Shown here: in pieces, positions 8,560 through 62,738 of the stretch | How the letters are laid out: each line of letters opens with the position of its first letter | Position numbering within the stretch: the stretch's first letter is position 1 | Assembly: GCF_000336635.1 (NCBI RefSeq) | Contig: NZ_AOLY01000009.1 | Span: 47,935 to 111,197, forward strand | Direction of reading: 5' to 3' | DNA from: Haloarcula japonica DSM 6131 | GTDB lineage: Archaea > Halobacteriota > Halobacteria > Halobacteriales > Haloarculaceae | Length of the DNA: 63,263 nt | Notes under the pieces: model-generated | What the model saw: only the letters and a program-made list of their open reading frames with translations | Told to the model about the DNA's origin: nothing | Database searches by the model: none | Made by a program: the position numbers and the translations under genes

Positions 8560-8618
8560 CGCGTACAGTTCCCGCACTACGGTAACGCTGATACCGGCGG
8601 CAGCCTAACGCGCCAGTC

Positions 8619-9020
8619 GTGCAGCGACTTACGACAGTCGAGACGGTACACGAGGACGGGTCGTGGCTGTTCACCGCCGAAGACGCCTACGGCGACCTGG
8701 AGGAGGTCGTTCTCGTGCCGTGTGACGACGGCGTCGAGGCCTGGGTGAACCGATGTACCCACGAAGCACAGCGGTTCGACACCGGACGGGGCGTCCCGAT
8801 GCGGGACGACCAGCTCATCTGCCCCCGGCACGGTTCGCTGTTCGATGCTTGCGACGGCGGCTGCGACAACGGCGACGCCGCGGGGACGACGCTCCCCGGC
8901 GTCGAAATTTCGGAGACCCACGGCGACGTGTTCCTCACGGACGACGACTATACGTTCGCCCACGAGGGCGGCATCGACGACGACGACGGTCCGAGTTCGA
9001 CATCCCACCTCCAGCTGTGA
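8619..9020 (+). CDS. Rieske [2Fe-2S] ferredoxin-like protein
   Basis: 133 residues from a GTG start. The Rieske ligands are clear: C46-T-H48 (NRCTHEAQRFD) and C68-P-R-H71 (ICPRHGSLFD). No membrane anchor or signal is present, so this is a soluble cytoplasmic Rieske protein, of the ferredoxin type that serves oxygenases or other redox partners rather than a bc1-complex subunit. After the second ligand pair there is an unusual acidic loop with two extra cysteines (FDACDGGCDNGD). Its stop overlaps the GTG start of the following zinc ribbon gene by 3 bases. Confidence 0.9.
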   Translation: MQRLTTVETVHEDGSWLFTAEDAYGDLEEVVLVPCDDGVEAWVNRCTHEAQRFDTGRGVPMRDDQLICPRHGSLFDACDGGCDNGDAAGTTLPGVEISETHGDVFLTDDDYTFAHEGGIDDDDGPSSTSHLQL

Positions 9021-9208
9021 CCGACGGCAACAGCATCGACCGGGACCGACTGCGAGCGGGCGTCGTCGAATGTCCGCTCTGTGAGCGCCAGATACCCGAG
9101 CCACTAACGCACGCCATCGTCTACGGCCCCGTCAACAGGGTGACGGCCGACAACGCCGAGGCCGTCGAGTGTCCGGTCTGTGACGGCGTGACGTTCGTCT
9201 CCGACTGA
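9017..9208 (+). CDS. Small zinc-ribbon protein coupled to the Rieske gene
   Basis: 63 residues from GTG at 9017, sharing TGA bases with the Rieske stop. It has two CPxC knuckles (ECPLCERQ and ECPVCDGV) about 30 residues apart, enough to hold one zinc ion. Small CPxC zinc fingers are abundant in haloarchaea and few have known functions. The overlap implies co-translation with the Rieske protein; partnership is inference. Confidence 0.75.
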   Translation: MTDGNSIDRDRLRAGVVECPLCERQIPEPLTHAIVYGPVNRVTADNAEAVECPVCDGVTFVSD

Positions 9209-9222
9209 CAGCGGAAGACTGC

Positions 9223-9621
9223 TCAGCCGCCGGTCAGGACCTCATCGGCCCTGATTCGGAGGATGACGCGCTCGGTCTGAATCGGGTTCGGATACTCGTC
9301 TTCGCCCATGTATCGCTGTGCCAGCGTGTCGATGTGTTCACGCGCTCCCTCCGTGGTCACTTCCTCGACCTCGCCCGTCACGGAGAGGAACCGATACGGG
9401 TTCTCCGGATCAGTCATGCTCACCGCGACAGTCGGGTCGGACTCGACGTTGCGCGCCTTCCGGCGGCCGCGCTCGGTGTTTATCAGCAGCCGGTCGTCGT
9501 CGCTGTCGTAATCGACCCAGACCGGCGTGGCGTGTGGCTCCCCGTCCGGCGTCATCGTCGTCACGTGCGCGAACGTCGCCTTCTCGAACAGGTCGTGGAA
9601 CTCCGTGGGTATAGATGGCAC
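9223..9621 (-). CDS. PPOX-class (F420- or flavin-binding) split-barrel protein
   Basis: About 132 residues from GTG at 9621 (VPSIPTEFHDLFEKATFAHV); a second GTG three codons earlier (9630) is also possible, while the longer open frame runs into topA and is not coding. The pattern FAHVTTMTPDGEPHATPVWVDYD, then NTERGRRKARNVESDPTVAVSM, is that of pyridoxamine-5'-phosphate-oxidase-like split barrels, most like the F420-dependent group. Such proteins bind FMN or F420 and reduce varied substrates; the substrate is unknown. It lies 43 bases downstream of topA on the same strand and may be co-transcribed with it. Confidence 0.82.
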   Translation of the reverse strand: MPSIPTEFHDLFEKATFAHVTTMTPDGEPHATPVWVDYDSDDDRLLINTERGRRKARNVESDPTVAVSMTDPENPYRFLSVTGEVEEVTTEGAREHIDTLAQRYMGEDEYPNPIQTERVILRIRADEVLTGG

Positions 9622-9664
9622 ACCTGCCACCAGTCCCGCGAGCGGATTAATGGTACCGCCGGCG

Positions 9665-12148
9665 TCAGGCTTCGAGTTCGTCCTGCCAGTCCCGGACCTG
9701 CGTGGCGCTGACGCCCTGGACTTCTGTGGCGACGCTGTCGGGGTCGGCCTCACGGAGCGCCGCCAGCGAGTCGACGCCGGCGTCGCCGAGCTTCTCCGCG
9801 GTCGCCGAGCCGATGCCGCTCAGGTCCTCCAAGTCCTCGACGGCGGTGCGGGCTTGGTACTCCTCGTAGTTGCAGATGGGACAACCCAGCTCCCAGGGGT
9901 CGTCGCTGTCGGCGTCGATGACCAGCTCCGGCAGGTCGTGCTCCTCACAGAACGCCTCGGTCACCGAGATGTCGCCGTTGCGGGGCAATGGCAGCGAGTA
10001 GTCACAGTCGGGGTAGCGCGTACAGCCGACGAGCCGGGAGCCCGAGCGGAGGTGTTTGATGGCCAATTCACCGTCGTGTTCGGAGCCGCATTCAGGACAC
10101 GGCCCGATGACCTCGTCCTCGCTTTCATCGGCCTTCTCGGCCTCACAGCGGGGGCAGCCGTGGACGAACGTGTCCCGGCCGGCGAGCATTTTGACGTGGT
10201 GCATATCGTGTTCCTCGCAGTGCTCTTCGAGCACTTGCGGCTCGCCCGTCGAGGTCAGCGGGAGCGTGTTGCGACACTCGGGGAAGCCGTCGCAGCCGAC
10301 GAAGTACGACCCCTGGCGCGAGCGCCGGACCAACATGTCCTCGCCGCACTTCGGACAGGGGCCGAGCGTCTTGTCGGCTTTCAGTGACTCCTGGAGGTGC
10401 TCGCCGATTTCCTCGCGGGAATCGCGCAGTTCATCGAACACCCGCTTGAGCATCTCGCGGGACTCGTCGGCCACGTCGTCGAGCGTCGCCTCGCCGTTGG
10501 CGATGGCGGTCATGTCAGCCTCTAACTGGGCGGTCATCTCGTCGCTGACGACGTGGTCAGCGAACTCCTCGGCGGCCTCGACGACGGCCATCGCCAGCGT
10601 CGTCGGCCGGGGCGGGTCGCCCTCGATGTAGCCGCGGTCGTACAGCTTCTCGATGGAGTTGTGTCGGGTCGACTTCGTCCCCAGGCCTTTGTCCTCCATC
10701 GTCTGGATGAGCCGGGACTGGCCGTAGCGACGTGGTGGCTGGGTCTGTTTGTCCTCCATCCGCACCTCGGAGATGGCCAGTTCCTCGCCTTCCTCCACGT
10801 CGGGGACGTGGTTCTCGCTGGCGCTGGAGTAGGGGTACACCTCGTGGTAGCCCGGTTCGACCAGGCGCTTGCCGTTGGCCTTCAGCGAGCGGCCGCCGGC
10901 GTCGGCGACGACGCGGAGGTGTTCCCACGTCGCGGCCTCGGCGACCGTCGCGAAGAAGCGCCGGACGACCAGTTCGTAGATCTCCCACTCGTCGTCCGAG
11001 AGGTCTGCCTTCGGCGGAATCTCGCCAGTCGGGTGAATGGGCGGGTGGTCAGTCGTCTCCTCGTCGCCTTCGGTGGCGGTGATGTCGTCTTGCTCCAGTA
11101 GCTTTTCGGCGTCCTCGCCGAAATGTCCGGCTCCCACGAACTCATCGAGCAAGGCGTCTTCTTCGAGGTCGTCCGGGTAGACGGTGTTGTCCGTCCGCGG
11201 GTAGGTGATGTAACCGGTGGTGTACAGTTCCTCGGCGATTGACATCGCCTGCTGGGCGGAGTAGCCCAGCGAACTCGCAGCGGAGATAAAGGCGGTGGTG
11301 TTGAACGGCGTCGGCGGGCTGTCGGTGCGGGTCCGGCGGCGGACGCTCGTCACCGTCGCTGCATCGACGCTCGTCAGGTCGGCGTAGGCCTCGTCGGCGT
11401 CGTCTTCGACCCAGACCCGCTCGGCCTCCTTGCCGTCGTCGTCGTAGAAATACTGGGCCTCGAAGCCCGAGCCGTTCTTCTGGAGGTCAGCGAAAATCTC
11501 CCAGTAGTCCTCGGGGTCGAAGGCCTGTATCTCCCGTTCGCGGTCGACGATGAGCTTCAGCGTCGGCGACTGGACCCGGCCCACGGAAATGAAGTCGTCA
11601 CCCAACTGTCGGGCCGACAGCGAGAGGAAGCGGGTAAGTGCGGCCCCCCATACGAGATCGATGATCTGCCGGGCCTCGCCGGCGGCCGCCAGGTCGAAGT
11701 CGATATCGTCGGGGTTGGCGAAGGCGTCCCGGACCTCCCGCTCGGTGATCGAGGAGAAGCGGACGCGGTCGACGGGCGCGTCGGTCTCCTCGCGGATGAG
11801 CTCGTAGGCCTCCTTGCCGATGAGCTCTCCTTCGCGGTCGTAGTCTGTCGCAATGGTGGCCTCGTCAGCTTCCCGTGCCAGTTGCTTCAGCGTCGTGACG
11901 ATGTTCTCCTGAGTCGGTTCCTTTGTCACGTCGGCGTCGATGAGCTCGACCGGCTCCACGTCACGCCAGTCGTTGTACTCCTCGGGGAAGTCGACGCCGA
12001 CGACGTGGCCGGAGAGGCCGACGACGCGCGTGTTCCCCCACCGATAGACGTTGACGCCGTTTTGCCGGCTCGCGGAGGCGCTCCCCTCGGAGAGGATCTC
12101 CGCGATGCGGCGGGCGGCGTTGTCCTTCTCGGTGATAATCAACCGCAT
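9665..12148 (-). CDS. topA: DNA topoisomerase I (type IA)
   Basis: 827 residues. Toprim domain at the N terminus (LIITEKDNAARRIAEIL, later ATDYDREGELIG with the metal-binding DxD), then the gated ring with active-site tyrosine in GYITYPRTDN. The C-terminal part has zinc knuckles (CPKCGEDM...GCDGFPEC, CPECGSEH...GCTRYPDC and a further Cys pair), and the last 60 residues form a helix-hairpin-helix domain (LSGIGSATAEKLGDAGV). It relaxes negative supercoils by passing one strand through a break. The HhH tail is not part of bacterial topoisomerase I. Its start is 223 bases from the next gene, which is divergent. Confidence 0.96.
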   Translation of the reverse strand: MRLIITEKDNAARRIAEILSEGSASASRQNGVNVYRWGNTRVVGLSGHVVGVDFPEEYNDWRDVEPVELIDADVTKEPTQENIVTTLKQLAREADEATIATDYDREGELIGKEAYELIREETDAPVDRVRFSSITEREVRDAFANPDDIDFDLAAAGEARQIIDLVWGAALTRFLSLSARQLGDDFISVGRVQSPTLKLIVDREREIQAFDPEDYWEIFADLQKNGSGFEAQYFYDDDGKEAERVWVEDDADEAYADLTSVDAATVTSVRRRTRTDSPPTPFNTTAFISAASSLGYSAQQAMSIAEELYTTGYITYPRTDNTVYPDDLEEDALLDEFVGAGHFGEDAEKLLEQDDITATEGDEETTDHPPIHPTGEIPPKADLSDDEWEIYELVVRRFFATVAEAATWEHLRVVADAGGRSLKANGKRLVEPGYHEVYPYSSASENHVPDVEEGEELAISEVRMEDKQTQPPRRYGQSRLIQTMEDKGLGTKSTRHNSIEKLYDRGYIEGDPPRPTTLAMAVVEAAEEFADHVVSDEMTAQLEADMTAIANGEATLDDVADESREMLKRVFDELRDSREEIGEHLQESLKADKTLGPCPKCGEDMLVRRSRQGSYFVGCDGFPECRNTLPLTSTGEPQVLEEHCEEHDMHHVKMLAGRDTFVHGCPRCEAEKADESEDEVIGPCPECGSEHDGELAIKHLRSGSRLVGCTRYPDCDYSLPLPRNGDISVTEAFCEEHDLPELVIDADSDDPWELGCPICNYEEYQARTAVEDLEDLSGIGSATAEKLGDAGVDSLAALREADPDSVATEVQGVSATQVRDWQDELEA

Positions 12149-15097: not shown

Positions 15098-15400
15098 ATG
15101 TGCGGCAACCGAGTCGAGGAACTCGAAACGCGCGTCAGAGAACTGGAAGCGTCGGTCGAAGGACTGACCGACGAACTCGTCGAATGCAAGGTCCGTATCC
15201 GGGAACTCGAAGCCAGCGTCGACGAAGACAACGGATTCAGCGCCGACGAGTCCGACTCGGAGGAATCGGCCGCCACGCCGGCGGAGGCCGACACACCTAA
15301 CACTGAGGATACCGACGAGGTTGATAACAGGGAGGAAGCCGAGGCCGCGTCGGAGGCCGAGACCGAGGAGGACTCGGAGTCCGACATCATCGTCGCGTAG
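15098..15400 (+). CDS. Small coiled-coil acidic protein upstream of smc
   Basis: About 100 residues from ATG at 15098 (MCGNRVEELETRV); an ATG at 15053 in frame would add 15 residues. Residues 1-45 are a clear heptad coiled coil (EELETRVRELEASVEGLTDELVE), and the rest is almost entirely Asp/Glu/Ala/Ser and probably disordered. I recall it as a DUF7518-like family. It ends 21 bases before smc on the same strand, so it may be co-transcribed with the condensin genes. Confidence 0.72.
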   Translation: MCGNRVEELETRVRELEASVEGLTDELVECKVRIRELEASVDEDNGFSADESDSEESAATPAEADTPNTEDTDEVDNREEAEAASEAETEEDSESDIIVA

Positions 15401-56516: not shown

Positions 56517-57980
56517 ATGAGCTGGAAGGACACCGCCGAACCACTGCTTGTCCGGATGCCCGCAGTCCAGCGGCCGGAAGGACACGTCCCGTTCAAGCGC
56601 AAGCTCACTTGGACAGGTGGCGTGCTCTTGCTGTATTTCTTCCTGACGAACGTGAAGCTGTTCGGGCTGGACATCGACGCCAGCCAACAGGTGTTCGGGC
56701 GCTTCTCCTCGATTCTGGCCTCCGGCCAGGGGAGCATCTTGCAGCTGGGTATCGGTCCGATCGTTACGGCGTCCATCGTGTTGCAGCTCCTCGGTGGGGC
56801 GGACCTGCTCGGGCTGAACACCCAAGACGATCCACGTGACCAGATCCTCTATCAGGGGCTTCAGAAGCTGCTGGTACTCGTGATGATCTGCCTCACCGGG
56901 CTCCCGATGGTGTTTGCCGGCGGCTTCCTCCCGGCTGACACGGCGGTCGCAAGTTCCCTGGGTATCGGCACGACCGGTGTCCAGTGGCTCATCTTCGGCC
57001 AGATGTTCGTCGGCGGTGTCCTCATCCTGTTCATGGACGAGGTCATCTCCAAGTGGGGCGTCGGCTCCGGTATCGGCCTGTTCATCGTCGCTGGCGTGAG
57101 CCAACGGCTCATCGGCGGCGTCCTGACGACGCCGTTTATCGGCAACAGCGAAGGGATCATCTACACCTGGTACCTGTTCATCACCGGCGAGCGCGGCACC
57201 GGGCCAGTGCTGGCCGCTGATGGGCTCCAGACCGTGCTGCTCCAGGGCGAACTGCTGGGGCTGTTCACGACACTCCTCATCTTCGCAGTGGTCGTCTACG
57301 CCGAATCTGTCCGTGTCGAGATCCCGCTGTCGAACGCCCGCGTGAAAGGAGCCCGTGGCCGGTTCCCGGTCAAGCTCATCTACGCAAGCGTCTTGCCGAT
57401 GATCCTCGTCCGGGCGCTCCAGGCGAACATCCAGTTCTTGGGCCGGATCCTCGACGCCCAGCTGGGTTCGATGCCGGCGTTCCTCGGCACGTACGCCAAC
57501 GGCCAGCCGACCGGCGGCCTGTTTTACTTCCTCGCCCCCATCCAGAGCCGTGGTGACTGGATGTGGTGGCTCGAAGGAACCACCCAACCGGTCTGGCAGA
57601 TCCTGACCCGCGTCGGCATCGACCTGTTCGTCATGCTGGTCGGCGGCGCAGTCTTCGCCGTATTCTGGGTCGAAACCACCGACATGGGTCCGGAAGCGAC
57701 TGCCAAGCAGATCCACAACTCCGGGATGCAGATTCCCGGCTTCCGACAGAACGTCGGTGTCATCGAGAAAGTCCTTGAGCGGTATATCCCGCAAGTGACC
57801 GTTATTGGTGGGGCCTTGGTTGGGCTGCTAGCTGTCATGGCCAACATGCTGGGTACCATCGGCGGCGTCTCCGGTACCGGGCTGCTGCTGACGGTCTCCA
57901 TTACGTACAAGCTGTACGAGGAGATCGCCGAAGAGCAGCTCATGGAGATGCATCCGATGATGCGCCAGATGTTTGGCTGA
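56517..57980 (+). CDS. secY: Preprotein translocase subunit SecY
   Basis: 487 residues with ten membrane segments. It starts with MSWKDTAEPLLVRMPAVQRPEGHVPFKRKLTWTGGVLLLYFFLTN and the plug region follows in the first extracellular loop; the cytosolic loop EIPLSNARVKGARGRFPVKLIYAS is conserved. It forms the protein-conducting channel with SecE and Sec61beta. It is the last gene of the cluster and is followed by decayed DNA. Confidence 0.98.
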   Translation: MSWKDTAEPLLVRMPAVQRPEGHVPFKRKLTWTGGVLLLYFFLTNVKLFGLDIDASQQVFGRFSSILASGQGSILQLGIGPIVTASIVLQLLGGADLLGLNTQDDPRDQILYQGLQKLLVLVMICLTGLPMVFAGGFLPADTAVASSLGIGTTGVQWLIFGQMFVGGVLILFMDEVISKWGVGSGIGLFIVAGVSQRLIGGVLTTPFIGNSEGIIYTWYLFITGERGTGPVLAADGLQTVLLQGELLGLFTTLLIFAVVVYAESVRVEIPLSNARVKGARGRFPVKLIYASVLPMILVRALQANIQFLGRILDAQLGSMPAFLGTYANGQPTGGLFYFLAPIQSRGDWMWWLEGTTQPVWQILTRVGIDLFVMLVGGAVFAVFWVETTDMGPEATAKQIHNSGMQIPGFRQNVGVIEKVLERYIPQVTVIGGALVGLLAVMANMLGTIGGVSGTGLLLTVSITYKLYEEIAEEQLMEMHPMMRQMFG

Positions 57981-57986
57981 GTTCTA

Positions 57987-58009
57987 CATTTATTCTATAT
58001 CAGTTTTTA
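57987..58009 (+). terminator. T-rich terminator after secY
   Basis: Alternating T runs (ATTTATTCTATATCAGTTTTT) begin 6 bases after the secY stop. Archaeal termination commonly uses such U-rich stretches, so the ribosomal transcript probably ends here. Confidence 0.5.
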
Positions 58010-58140
58010 GCGTCTAGATCCGCATCAATTGTGATTTGTTGGATGTACAGGTAATGTTTGATGCGTGCGTCTTTGGTCGTGAACTGCCAGTCGATATCAG
58101 AGTCATCGTCGTTGTGAGTTCGCTCTGCGAAATTCAACCG
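58000..58140 (-). pseudogene. Remnant of a transposase C terminus
   Basis: On the minus strand a frame of 44 codons, without its own start, ends at TGA 58000-58002. It reads NFAERTHNDDDSDIDWQFTTKDARIK and then loses the pattern. The string WQFTTxDARIK resembles the end of haloarchaeal transposases (IS630-type, as I remember them). Only this fragment remains. Confidence 0.4.
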
Positions 58141-58151
58141 GAAGGAACACC

Positions 58152-58680
58152 GTGCCTGTATCACCGACAGGTATGGTGATCACGGAACTTGGATCATCTG
58201 ATGAGACACCGTACGACGGGAGTCACCTCCGCGTGATTCTGGAGCATCGCACCGTTGCGGATGGCGTGCTCGACGGAGACGCCATTCTGGAGGTTGCTGC
58301 TCTTGCTGCGAAGGGGGACTCACGCAAGACCGTGGACACTCTCTATGAGGCCGGTCAGCTCGCGGAGAAAGAGTATAGGGTGTCCGTCGACCACTTCGAC
58401 GATACCGTCCAGCAAGCCGAAACCAATTGCTTCCAGAGGGTCGGGAGCGGGACGACGCCGCACGTCAAACATATCCTGCACCGTGGCGCTGGACCGCGAA
58501 CCATCCCGATCGAGAGGCGTTTCTTACCCCTCATATCTATGAATTGTACAGCGGATCGTGGATCGAGTGGACTCCGGCCCACTCTCGGAGGATCGCGCGT
58601 ATCGACTGCTCAAAGAACAGGCGACTATTGAAGTTGTTTCAGTATGGATTGTGATGAAACAGGCATTCAATCTGTCTGAC
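58152..58680 (+). pseudogene. Frameshifted remnant of orc1/cdc6 (C-terminal half)
   Basis: The fragment has no Walker motifs. In the first frame are HLRVILEHRTVADGVLDGD and AILEVAALAAKGDSRKTVDTL, then EAGQLAEKE, which match the lid region of archaeal Orc1/Cdc6. A second frame continues with TANHPDREAFLTPHIYELY, and a third with IVDRVDSGPLSEDRAYRLLKEQATIEVVSVW, which match the winged-helix DNA-binding domain. At least two frameshifts separate them. The AAA+ N terminus is missing. It is therefore a broken initiator gene, perhaps a plasmid-type Orc. Confidence 0.7.
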
Positions 58681-59330
58681 TATTTTGTACCCAGAACGTA
58701 GATTTTTCTCCACTGTAGGACTAAACAGGCAATCGATTTCTTTAAACTAAGTTCTTTATATGAATAGTCAAAAATACTCTTATCATCTATCCGCGTCACA
58801 TTAGTGTCAAAACCAACACTCTCTAAAAGACCAAGTACATCTTCTGTATCAAAATGATGAGGATGAGGCTTATCTATCATATTCAAATGAGATAAGATAA
58901 TATCTGGCAATTCATATACATTTAGACGAAAAATGAGGATTCCATCATCGTCAAGAATCCTGAAAATCTCTTCTGCTACTTTCTCTGGATTTATAGTGTG
59001 GTCCAACACATTATAGCAGATAACGGCATCGAAATATGTATCGGGGAACGGAAGCGACTCCCCCACACCAGTTATTAATTCCGCTGAACTTTGCTCAATA
59101 TCTTGGATTGAGCTATTTGTAATTGGGTCGATAGAGACGCTTTCTTCGCTGTCTATCGCATGAATCATCCCCGTTCCCCCACCAACAGCCAAAATTTTCT
59201 TGTCTTCTAATTCCTGAATTTCAATAGGAAAATTATTTAGTTTATTCTTAGCCTCTGTCTCCGAGTCGAGAGATATGTGATGTTGATGTGATTGCTCTAC
59301 CTCTTGGGCACGATCCCATCGTGTGTCCAT
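58680..59330 (-). CDS. Class I SAM-dependent methyltransferase
   Basis: 216 residues. The SAM-binding glycine motif is LAVGGGTGMIHAID, followed by GVGESLPFPDTYFDAVICYNVLDHT (motif post I to II) and FRILDDDGILIFRLNV. It belongs to the Methyltransf_11 type; the substrate is unknown but the neighbours suggest a glycan or lipid. The gene is clearly AT-richer than the genome average. A TTTTTAAC box 27 bases upstream of the ATG suggests a leaderless mRNA. Its stop meets the end of the orc1 remnant. Confidence 0.88.
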   Translation of the reverse strand: MDTRWDRAQEVEQSHQHHISLDSETEAKNKLNNFPIEIQELEDKKILAVGGGTGMIHAIDSEESVSIDPITNSSIQDIEQSSAELITGVGESLPFPDTYFDAVICYNVLDHTINPEKVAEEIFRILDDDGILIFRLNVYELPDIILSHLNMIDKPHPHHFDTEDVLGLLESVGFDTNVTRIDDKSIFDYSYKELSLKKSIACLVLQWRKIYVLGTK

Positions 59331-59813: not shown

Positions 59814-59913
59814 CTACTGATGTAACGGAACGAATCGGTTTGATTTAGTGTCTTCACTGGCCACTGGATAATGATGGACGAGGTACTGAAATCATATACT
59901 GGGTTTGATATAT

Positions 59914-61413
59914 ATGTCTGATGATGAGACAGAGATGGATATTCTGGCGACCCTCTCTAGGGGGGCGTCGTTGCACGTTGTCGGGAAGATCTTTTTTAAT
60001 GTTTTCGGATTTTTATTGCACCTCGTTCTTTCAAGGGGACTTGGCGCAGGATTGTATGGTATTTACGCGTATGGGAAAACGCTCTCTCGCATAGCGATTG
60101 TTTTCACCAACCTCGGCTCCGATCAGTCTGTACTGAAGTATCTGCCAGAGTACTCGGATGACGCTGCTCAGCAACGGCTCTTTTTCGGGCTGTCTGTGCT
60201 CACGTCTCTGGTTGGTTCGATCGTCGCCGCCGCTGTGTTGGCGGTGTATGCCCCGGTAATCTCAAATCTCACAATAGATAGGCCGGAGTTCATCGGTGTT
60301 TTGCGCTTATTTGCGATCATCACCGTCTTTGACACGCTCGCACGAATAATACACAGCAGCTTTCGGGGGCTTGAACGACTGGAGTACGAGGTACTGTCCA
60401 GCAAGATATCTCGTCCGATTCTCCGACTTATTGGGGTTGTCGGAGCACTTTCGCTTGGCTATTCTCTTACTGGTGTGATGGTTGCACTCGTCGTTGCGAG
60501 TGGCCTCGTGCTTGGGATCGCCTCATACCTTCTACTTAGTCGGTTCGAATTGCGGCCGTGGATATCTTCAGACCAAGTCACAAGAAGTAGCGTCTTCGAG
60601 TACTACAATTTCTCGATTCCGCTTACGATGAAGAATGCTGCGGATATTCTGATCCGACGAGTCGATATTTTCATGGTGGGATTGTTTTTTTCGTCTACAG
60701 TTGTCGGCTATTACAATATCTCATTACTCATTGCTGGATTCCTGACGATTCCTCTGATGGGATTTAATCAACTCTTTCCGCCGATTGCGTCACGACTCTA
60801 CATGAACGGCGAAATCCCCAAGCTCAATTCGCTGTATAATACTGTCACTCGATGGGTTTTCACGATCTCTTTTCTGATGGCTATCGGTGCGTTCGTGTAC
60901 CGTGCAGAGATTCTGTCCCTATTCGGTGAGGATTTCACAGCTGGGACACCCGTTCTGGCATTGTTTGTCGTTGGCCAGTTGTTCAACTGTCTCGGTGGTC
61001 CAAATGGATATCTCCTGATGATGACTGAACGCCAGTACGTGTTGGTCGTGAACCAGTGGGTCTTCGGTATCGTGAACGTCGTTCTCAACTACGTGATGAT
61101 CACTACGTTCGGGGTTCTCGGGGCCGCTGTTGCGACAGCTGGGGTCTTTGCCATGCTGAACATAGTCCAGACGATCGAACTATGGTACTTTGAGCGTCTG
61201 TTTCCCTACTCTCTGAATTTCTTGAAACCACTGTTTGCGGGTGTCATCACGACGATTGTGATGGTTTCCATACGCTACGTCATGAGCGATACCGTTCTGT
61301 TGATCATCGGAGGGCTCACTGGTGTAGTGACGTATGGAATTGTGTTACTGGCTATCGGTATTGAGGAAGATGATAAGGAATTCTTCGGGAAAGTCACAGA
61401 CGGAGTCAAATAA
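59914..61413 (+). CDS. Wzx-like flippase (polysaccharide biosynthesis membrane protein)
   Basis: 499 residues from ATG at 59914; a TTG three codons upstream is possible but unlikely. About twelve to fourteen membrane segments, N-terminal SLHVVGKIFFNVFGFLLHLVLSRGLGAGLYGIYAYGKT fits the MATE/Wzx (polysaccharide flippase) superfamily. It would flip lipid-linked glycans from the inner to the outer face for N-glycosylation or exopolysaccharide. Close in kind to haloarchaeal Agl15. It stands next to methyltransferase and sulfatase-like genes, consistent with a glycan cluster. GC is lower than in the ribosomal region. Confidence 0.87.
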   Translation: MSDDETEMDILATLSRGASLHVVGKIFFNVFGFLLHLVLSRGLGAGLYGIYAYGKTLSRIAIVFTNLGSDQSVLKYLPEYSDDAAQQRLFFGLSVLTSLVGSIVAAAVLAVYAPVISNLTIDRPEFIGVLRLFAIITVFDTLARIIHSSFRGLERLEYEVLSSKISRPILRLIGVVGALSLGYSLTGVMVALVVASGLVLGIASYLLLSRFELRPWISSDQVTRSSVFEYYNFSIPLTMKNAADILIRRVDIFMVGLFFSSTVVGYYNISLLIAGFLTIPLMGFNQLFPPIASRLYMNGEIPKLNSLYNTVTRWVFTISFLMAIGAFVYRAEILSLFGEDFTAGTPVLALFVVGQLFNCLGGPNGYLLMMTERQYVLVVNQWVFGIVNVVLNYVMITTFGVLGAAVATAGVFAMLNIVQTIELWYFERLFPYSLNFLKPLFAGVITTIVMVSIRYVMSDTVLLIIGGLTGVVTYGIVLLAIGIEEDDKEFFGKVTDGVK

Positions 61414-61415
61414 TA

Positions 61416-62738
61416 TCACATGTACCCAAGATCCTGTAGTTGGCTTTTGATGTCTTCGGACATTGTGTTATCTGGCATCTCTTGGACATCTATTTCCGTG
61501 ATATCCATGGCTTCTATTAAATTCTCAATCTTTGATTGAGGAACTGTCTTTTCTGGTTCGCCTTGTTCGATAAACTCTCCTTGTGGAGTCTCGTACCCAT
61601 AGTAATTCTCTGGCATCGCAATTCCGCGTAGCGGTTGATCGATCATTTCTAAAAATTCAGGATCGATATCGGACTGTTTGAGCGTCTGTAGTTGTGATGT
61701 TCTGAGGCCGTGCGATTCGGTAAGGTACTCTCTGCTGGTGGGGTTCTCTATAAGATTCTGTCCGCGAGAGGGTGCGTCTATACCCGCTAAATCAAGGATT
61801 GTTTTGTGGACATCTAAAAGACTCACAGTTGCGTCAATTGATTCTGTATCGAGGTCGTCGTGGTAGATGTTTACCGGCACGTGGGTGAGTTCGGGATAGA
61901 CGCCGTAGTGATGTTTACTTGTGTTGTGTTCTCCAAAGAGCTCTCCATGATCGGAAACTGTAATCACATAATCAAAATTCTGCTGAAGTATTTCGAAGAT
62001 CAATTTATATATGTCTGATAGATAGTTTACAGCGTTTTTGTATGCTTGTTTCTGGTTTACAAGATTGGATTGTTTGACGTGTATTCCGTCGTCGATTCTT
62101 CTCTGAGTGTACTCCGTCGTTCGGTATTTTTCCGGAGGATAGTAAGGTGCATGAGCGTTCATTATATTTATGAATACGAATTCTTCATCACCGAAATTAG
62201 TAGCTGAAAGTATATCTAACGTTTCATTGGCTGAGTCAAATCGATTTCCGAACTTTAGCTTCCACCCAATTTTTATCGATTGAATAAATGATGAATCTGA
62301 CAGAGCACATTGCCCAATCATGTACAATTCTCTAATAGTCTTGGGTAAATTTGAGTTTTGAGCTCGATTTTTCCAAGAAAATACGTTGTCATCGCGTAAT
62401 TTTGCCCGCCCTGTATGATGAAACTCTTCAAATCCTCTATCAAACGCGTTCATCGGGGAAGCTAGGAGATTCCCACTAATTGCTTGTGTTTTGTAACCGT
62501 TGGCATAGAGTGTTTCAGCTAGGGTGGCTTCATTACAGGTCAACTGCTCAGATTTAGCGTGAACGCCGATTTCTGAGGCATACTTTCCAGTAAACATTGA
62601 TGCATGTGCTGGTACCGTGTAATGTGCAGGTGACCAAGCATTTACATAGTGCACGCCAGGAAGCCAGTCAAAGTAGCTCTCGAAAATATCTTGTCGCACA
62701 GTATCGAGAACGACAAGTGCGATATTTGGAGCAGACAT
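61416..62738 (-). CDS. Sulfatase-like hydrolase with Thr at the nucleophile position
   Basis: 440 residues of the alkaline-phosphatase superfamily. Metal-binding Asp12 is in VVLDTVRQD, the second set of metal ligands in VSDHGELFGEH. Where sulfatases have CxPxR or SxPxR, this protein has TVPAH (Thr41), so it lacks the residue converted to formylglycine. Thr is used as nucleophile in phosphodiesterase and phosphoethanolamine transferase relatives. It has no signal peptide or membrane segment. The gene is AT-rich. It ends 2 bases after the flippase stop on the other strand. Confidence 0.82.
   Translation of the reverse strand: MSAPNIALVVLDTVRQDIFESYFDWLPGVHYVNAWSPAHYTVPAHASMFTGKYASEIGVHAKSEQLTCNEATLAETLYANGYKTQAISGNLLASPMNAFDRGFEEFHHTGRAKLRDDNVFSWKNRAQNSNLPKTIRELYMIGQCALSDSSFIQSIKIGWKLKFGNRFDSANETLDILSATNFGDEEFVFINIMNAHAPYYPPEKYRTTEYTQRRIDDGIHVKQSNLVNQKQAYKNAVNYLSDIYKLIFEILQQNFDYVITVSDHGELFGEHNTSKHHYGVYPELTHVPVNIYHDDLDTESIDATVSLLDVHKTILDLAGIDAPSRGQNLIENPTSREYLTESHGLRTSQLQTLKQSDIDPEFLEMIDQPLRGIAMPENYYGYETPQGEFIEQGEPEKTVPQSKIENLIEAMDITEIDVQEMPDNTMSEDIKSQLQDLGYM

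Follow-up and report, generated by a model that had tools for sequence, protein, structure and literature searches.

Just downstream of secY, an Orc1/Cdc6 gene survives in Haloarcula japonica DSM 6131 only as a decayed C-terminal half, with the lid domain and a winged helix that is broken. This half occupies positions 58209-58638 of the 63,263-nt stretch of DNA analysed here, which we call the window. With a probability of roughly 0.85, we read it as a non-functional relic of the cdc6D type that would have been imported from outside Haloarcula, truncated beside scraps of mobile elements and then decayed. It is a pseudogene of a known kind, probably of foreign origin, located at a hot spot of a known type.

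Structure of the relic and its junction with secY

The features around the relic are listed below by window position.

56517-57980, plus strand: secY, intact, which closes the ribosomal cluster and forms the conserved left border of the variable island (NCBIfam SecY models)
58014-58125, minus strand: remnant of an IS630-family transposase gene, 3' end (83% over 113 columns to a Halapricum desulfuricans plasmid copy)
58118-58200, plus strand: internal piece resembling a tyrosine integrase, tentative (aligned over 84 columns with an ORF from genome G031, 83%)
58152-58631, plus strand: chimeric open frame of 159 codons that starts in the integrase-like piece, enters the relic and then leaves the relic's frame
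58209-58481, plus strand: Orc1/Cdc6 relic segment 1, lid domain up to TPHVKHILH (Cdc6_lid, and tblastn with homologs)
58490-58552, plus strand: relic segment 2, in a different frame, start of the winged helix (tblastn with the G033 and G072 homologs)
58543-58638, plus strand: relic segment 3, in a third frame, PLSEDRAYRLLKEQ of the winged helix (tblastn)
58680-59330, minus strand: SAM-dependent methyltransferase, the first island gene (Methyltransf_11)
59905-61413, plus strand: polysaccharide flippase, Wzx/Polysacc_synt (Polysacc_synt)
61416-62738, minus strand: sulfatase-family protein (Sulfatase, PF00884)

The stop-to-stop frame 58083-58628 matched the Pfam model Cdc6_lid with 32.9 bits (E 6e-8, cut-off 27 bits). 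TIGR02928 (orc1/cdc6) gave a partial match to the same frame, with 51.9 bits, below its full-length cut-off of 181. Frame-aware comparison and tblastn showed that the relic segments were collinear with intact homologs across three frames, with an E of 1e-43 for the three-frame match to the G033 homolog. The real lid segment scored 83-105 bits with nine homologs, and the top score with the same nine was 26.6 bits in 500 block shuffles of the region. In a PDB sequence search, archaeal Cdc6 structures (2v1u, 2qby) were matched weakly; an engineered repeat protein among the matches was taken as a chance match. Phage records had no match to the relic, and no further copy of the region was found above chance in the own genome.

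The alignment to the G072 homolog (407 residues) spanned only residues 221-371, and residues 1-220 had no match in 57981-58800. Therefore, the ATPase part (the AAA+ core with its Walker motifs) and the final ~36 residues are absent. What remains of the winged helix is spread over three frames. The lid part differs from its homologs by three gaps of 6 nt each, all in frame. Because the ATPase core is lost, the relic can hardly function as an initiator.

An earlier note on this DNA had described a broken C-terminal Orc1/Cdc6 part in three frames, with the AAA+ domain gone, next to the ribosomal cluster. The domain and tblastn matches bear this out, and the translated search it proposed returned both lid and winged-helix matches to haloarchaeal Orc1. 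The location is also correct, with secY, the last gene of the ribosomal cluster, ending at 57980, upstream of the relic. The proposed extent, 58152-58680, had to be narrowed to the Orc1 portion given above, as position 58152 falls in the integrase-like piece. For the same reason, the 159-codon frame is a chimeric chance frame; it was rejected as a gene with a role of its own, since it starts in that piece and exits the Orc1 frame.

The relic begins abruptly, right after the IS630 and integrase-like pieces. Both lie after the secY stop and ahead of the relic, which is therefore truncated at a mobile-element junction. Both mobile pieces are incomplete: ~113 bp of the transposase 3' end are left of the IS630 element, and ~83 bp of the integrase-like gene, too little for a complete catalytic domain. 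The G031 reference ORF of the latter scored 24.2 bits with Phage_integrase, below the cut-off of 27.1.

A DNA match to secY was present in all 32 Haloarcula genomes. Genome G027 has two secY copies ~7 kb apart (C1:1854631-1855117 and 1861779-1862255), with glycan-type genes between them. Extra divergent copies (75-79% DNA identity) were seen in G014 (C4) and in the own genome (C48:28613-29085), and plasmids from three genera (Haloarcula, Haloferax and Natronorubrum) also have an annotated secY.

Affiliation with cdc6D and affinity to other genera

When compared with the 32 Haloarcula genomes, the relic matched a single protein group, found in nine other genomes with 54-64% identity. The remaining Orc1 genes in the relic's genome reached 26-46%, over parts of the relic only. 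We infer that the matched group is cdc6D of H. hispanica (G007:C3). In a tree of 14 rows and 97 lid columns, the relic was placed inside the H. hispanica cdc6D clade with a support of 100/99.

The search was widened to 391 genomes of the class, 26 of which, own genome counted, had a match at E 1e-20. The nearest homologs, with 73% lid identity, came from G033 and G072, which represent two genera of this family other than Haloarcula. The relic grouped with both at a support of 98/88, to be read with the fact that both trees have only 97 alignment columns and a long relic branch (0.33-0.46). At the DNA level, identity was 77.6% over 438 columns with G033 and 72.1% with G072, both matches starting exactly at 58209; with most Haloarcula cdc6D copies it was 65-70%.

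The relic and the G033 homolog differed by 12/11/33 nucleotides at codon positions 1/2/3 in 91 codons, compared with 2/2/27 between the cdc6D genes of H. argentinensis and H. hispanica. By these counts, the lineage of the relic mostly diverged under selection before the gene died, and a recent derivation from the Haloarcula gene does not apply. The changes at positions 1 and 2 nevertheless exceed those between intact homologs of similar third-position distance.

A plasmid that integrated here together with an Orc1 origin of its own is an unlikely source of the relic. The IS630 and integrase-like pieces next to it would fit a plasmid, Orc1 is frequent on haloarchaeal plasmids, and farther into this region, outside the window, a protein is encoded that weakly matches TrwB_AAD_bind, a T4SS coupling domain. 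However, the best lid identity among 50 plasmid records was 51%, which is not a close match, and no plasmid backbone was seen beside the relic. The 73% homologs sit on larger contigs (241 kb and 2.8 Mb), also with glycan genes. The earlier note had suggested a former plasmid or origin-bearing element that integrated and decayed. Its foreign and decayed character agrees with the other-genus homologs, the IS630 and integrase-like scraps and the lack of a cdc6D-type ORB nearby; the plasmid comparison speaks rather against a plasmid.

Less probable still is a relic of the native Haloarcula cdc6D, displaced from its usual locus into the secY island, where it would have decayed. This gene is located in the variable region VR1 of four Haloarcula species (Wu 2014, PMC4441112), and oriC3-cdc6D occurs in H. 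hispanica, H. amylolytica, H. argentinensis and H. sinaiiensis (Wu 2012, PMC3528665; Wu 2014, PMC4441112). The relic lies at secY instead. A move would fit the state of the VR1-like region of the own genome (C33:34961-41994). Its two flanks are collinear with those of cdc6D in H. argentinensis (88.8% and 86.9%), yet the gene is lacking: 442 bp stand in place of 2.1 kb including cdc6D (reference 8597-10673). No cdc6D remnant was found there (tblastn, E 1e-2, C33:20000-53000). Against a move, the proteins of H. hispanica and H. argentinensis had only 59-61% lid identity with the relic. The codon-position differences between the relic and these two copies were 23-24/16-17/59 in 91 codons, far from the 2/2/27 that separate the two from each other, and the tree grouped the relic with other genera. 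A recent move from VR1 is ruled out by these distances. Since the VR1-like locus is collinear but without cdc6D, its emptiness and the secY relic are best read as separate histories.

Origin repeats were searched in the window with a cdc6D ORB pattern derived from repeats, with a 4-base spacer. It had six matches in the H. amylolytica cdc6D control locus and a single one in the 63-kb window, at 15291, which is at chance level (chance 0.19); none was near the relic. A pattern with a 5-base spacer was dropped, having zero matches in its own positive control. The own genome keeps open Orc1 genes that appear to be of the cdc6A type (C4:60862) and the cdc6E type (C9:373026-374216).

The surface-glycan island and its second Orc1 relic

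The relic is located at the left edge of a surface-glycan island, with a methyltransferase, a flippase and sulfatases to its right. Past the window end, the island continues with glycosyltransferases and an asparagine-synthase-like protein, and it has a second Orc1 relic there. The island region ends on the right with what we take to be a trkA-like gene, named from its N-terminal sequence.

The second Orc1 pseudogene (C9:120711-121824, equivalent to window positions 72777-73890) lies ~14 kb beyond the first and ~10 kb past the window end. It is nearly full-length, with a frameshift and a TAG, and does not belong to the cdc6D group. Its identity to the intact Orc1 of the H. marismortui island (G013), a 404-aa protein of a different group located 27 kb downstream of secY, was 50%. 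A decayed relative of the H. marismortui gene is found in the same island of G023. We infer that the H. marismortui gene is the published cdc6g of VR2 (PMC4441112); the equation is ours because secY goes unmentioned in PMC3528665 (2012). The cdc6g-associated origin and our relic probably share one chromosomal island. Unlike the relic, cdc6g belongs to the other Orc1 group, its relative here being the second pseudogene.

The DNA after secY varies from genome to genome, as seen at 20 loci of 19 genomes, and many of the nearest ones have glycan-type ORFs. The earlier note had also considered an ancestral extra chromosomal origin of Haloarcula downstream of secY, lost in most lineages. This is the least probable history: the intact H. 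marismortui Orc1 and its decayed relatives in the own genome and in G023 do occupy the same island, but they belong to another Orc1 group, the 4-17 kb of sequence read after secY at each of the 20 loci contained no Orc1, none of the 31 other Haloarcula genomes has a cdc6D-type piece beside secY, the Haloarcula place of cdc6D is another locus, present here without the gene, and copies from other genera are closer to the relic than those of Haloarcula.

Proposed history and a possible link between cdc6D and glycan genes

In the preferred reading, import from another genus, a glycan or origin-bearing segment with a cdc6D-type gene would have entered the secY island from outside Haloarcula. The 5' half and the origin may then have been lost, either by IS630 or integrase insertion followed by deletion, or by repeated illegitimate recombination; the route of truncation would accordingly be an IS, an integrase or plain recombination. 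The remainder could have decayed at no cost, because intact Orc1 genes, including the cdc6A-like and cdc6E-like ones, remain elsewhere in the genome. The 6-nt lid gaps speak against this reading, since three in-frame gaps are slightly odd for a long-dead gene. An end-to-end donor segment from G033 or G072 was not found in the island: with G072, it shares only the orc piece, a glycosyltransferase at 72% and a 60-bp match, and with G033 only the orc piece and a 44-bp match.

Glycan-type neighbours were counted within ~10 kb of hand-picked Orc1 loci, using seven glycan-type query proteins; the choice of both loci and queries somewhat favours the cdc6D set. At least one neighbour was present at 13 of 17 cdc6D loci, and absent at the other four, versus 1 of 20 other Orc1 loci. 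At least two were present at 10/17 versus 0/20 (Fisher p 6e-5, too optimistic a value because the loci are mutually related). Tentatively, cdc6D-type initiators might travel recurrently with surface-glycan islands across haloarchaeal genera, the glycan genes staying, the initiator decaying and the relics recording the transfer. If the link is general, initiator relics could show when and along which paths cell-surface gene clusters moved; such clusters are probably relevant to virus escape and mating in haloarchaea.

Several published systems resemble the relic. For Haloarcula polysaccharide regions, gain, loss and disruption of origins have been published, cdc6D included (PMC3528665, PMC4441112). 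Polysaccharide genes surround the variable origins (PMC3528665), and the cdc6D origin is reported to be disrupted or inactive in H. hispanica, with loss in related species (PMC4441112). Like oriC3-cdc6D, the relic belongs to this Orc1 clade and is found in a variable polysaccharide region with transposases; unlike it, only the C-terminal half is left, at secY and not in VR1, and it is closer to other-genus copies. The split Cdc6H/Cdc6H_C of the H. hispanica minichromosome (PMC4441112) is likewise an Orc1 gene broken beside integrases and transposases. There, a perfect match to the missing C-terminal domain persists as a small gene (Cdc6H_C) ~123 kb off, whereas our relic is one frameshifted piece. 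In Haloferax, orc1 is found inside low-GC, variable glycosylation clusters, for which the authors suggested replicating mobile elements (PMC5867893). The setting is similar, but the genus is another.

Alone, the relic is one more trace of the secondary-origin gain, loss and disruption described by Wu and colleagues for Haloarcula variable regions. It adds the secY island to the places reached by a cdc6D-type gene, here one nearer to copies from other genera than to those of Haloarcula, and shows that relics of two unrelated initiators lie in this island. Neither the secY relic nor a cross-genus statement on cdc6D and glycan genes was found in the excerpts of the published literature searched.

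Two further cdc6D-type loci deserve mention. In G030 (C1; locus L091, 9509-10503), cdc6D is a split gene in two open frames, another decaying copy. In G154 (C2; locus L197, 8006-10477), the cdc6D-type gene has a shorter open frame than the other copies, and it adjoins, on the opposite strand, an Orc1 resembling that of the H. marismortui secY island.
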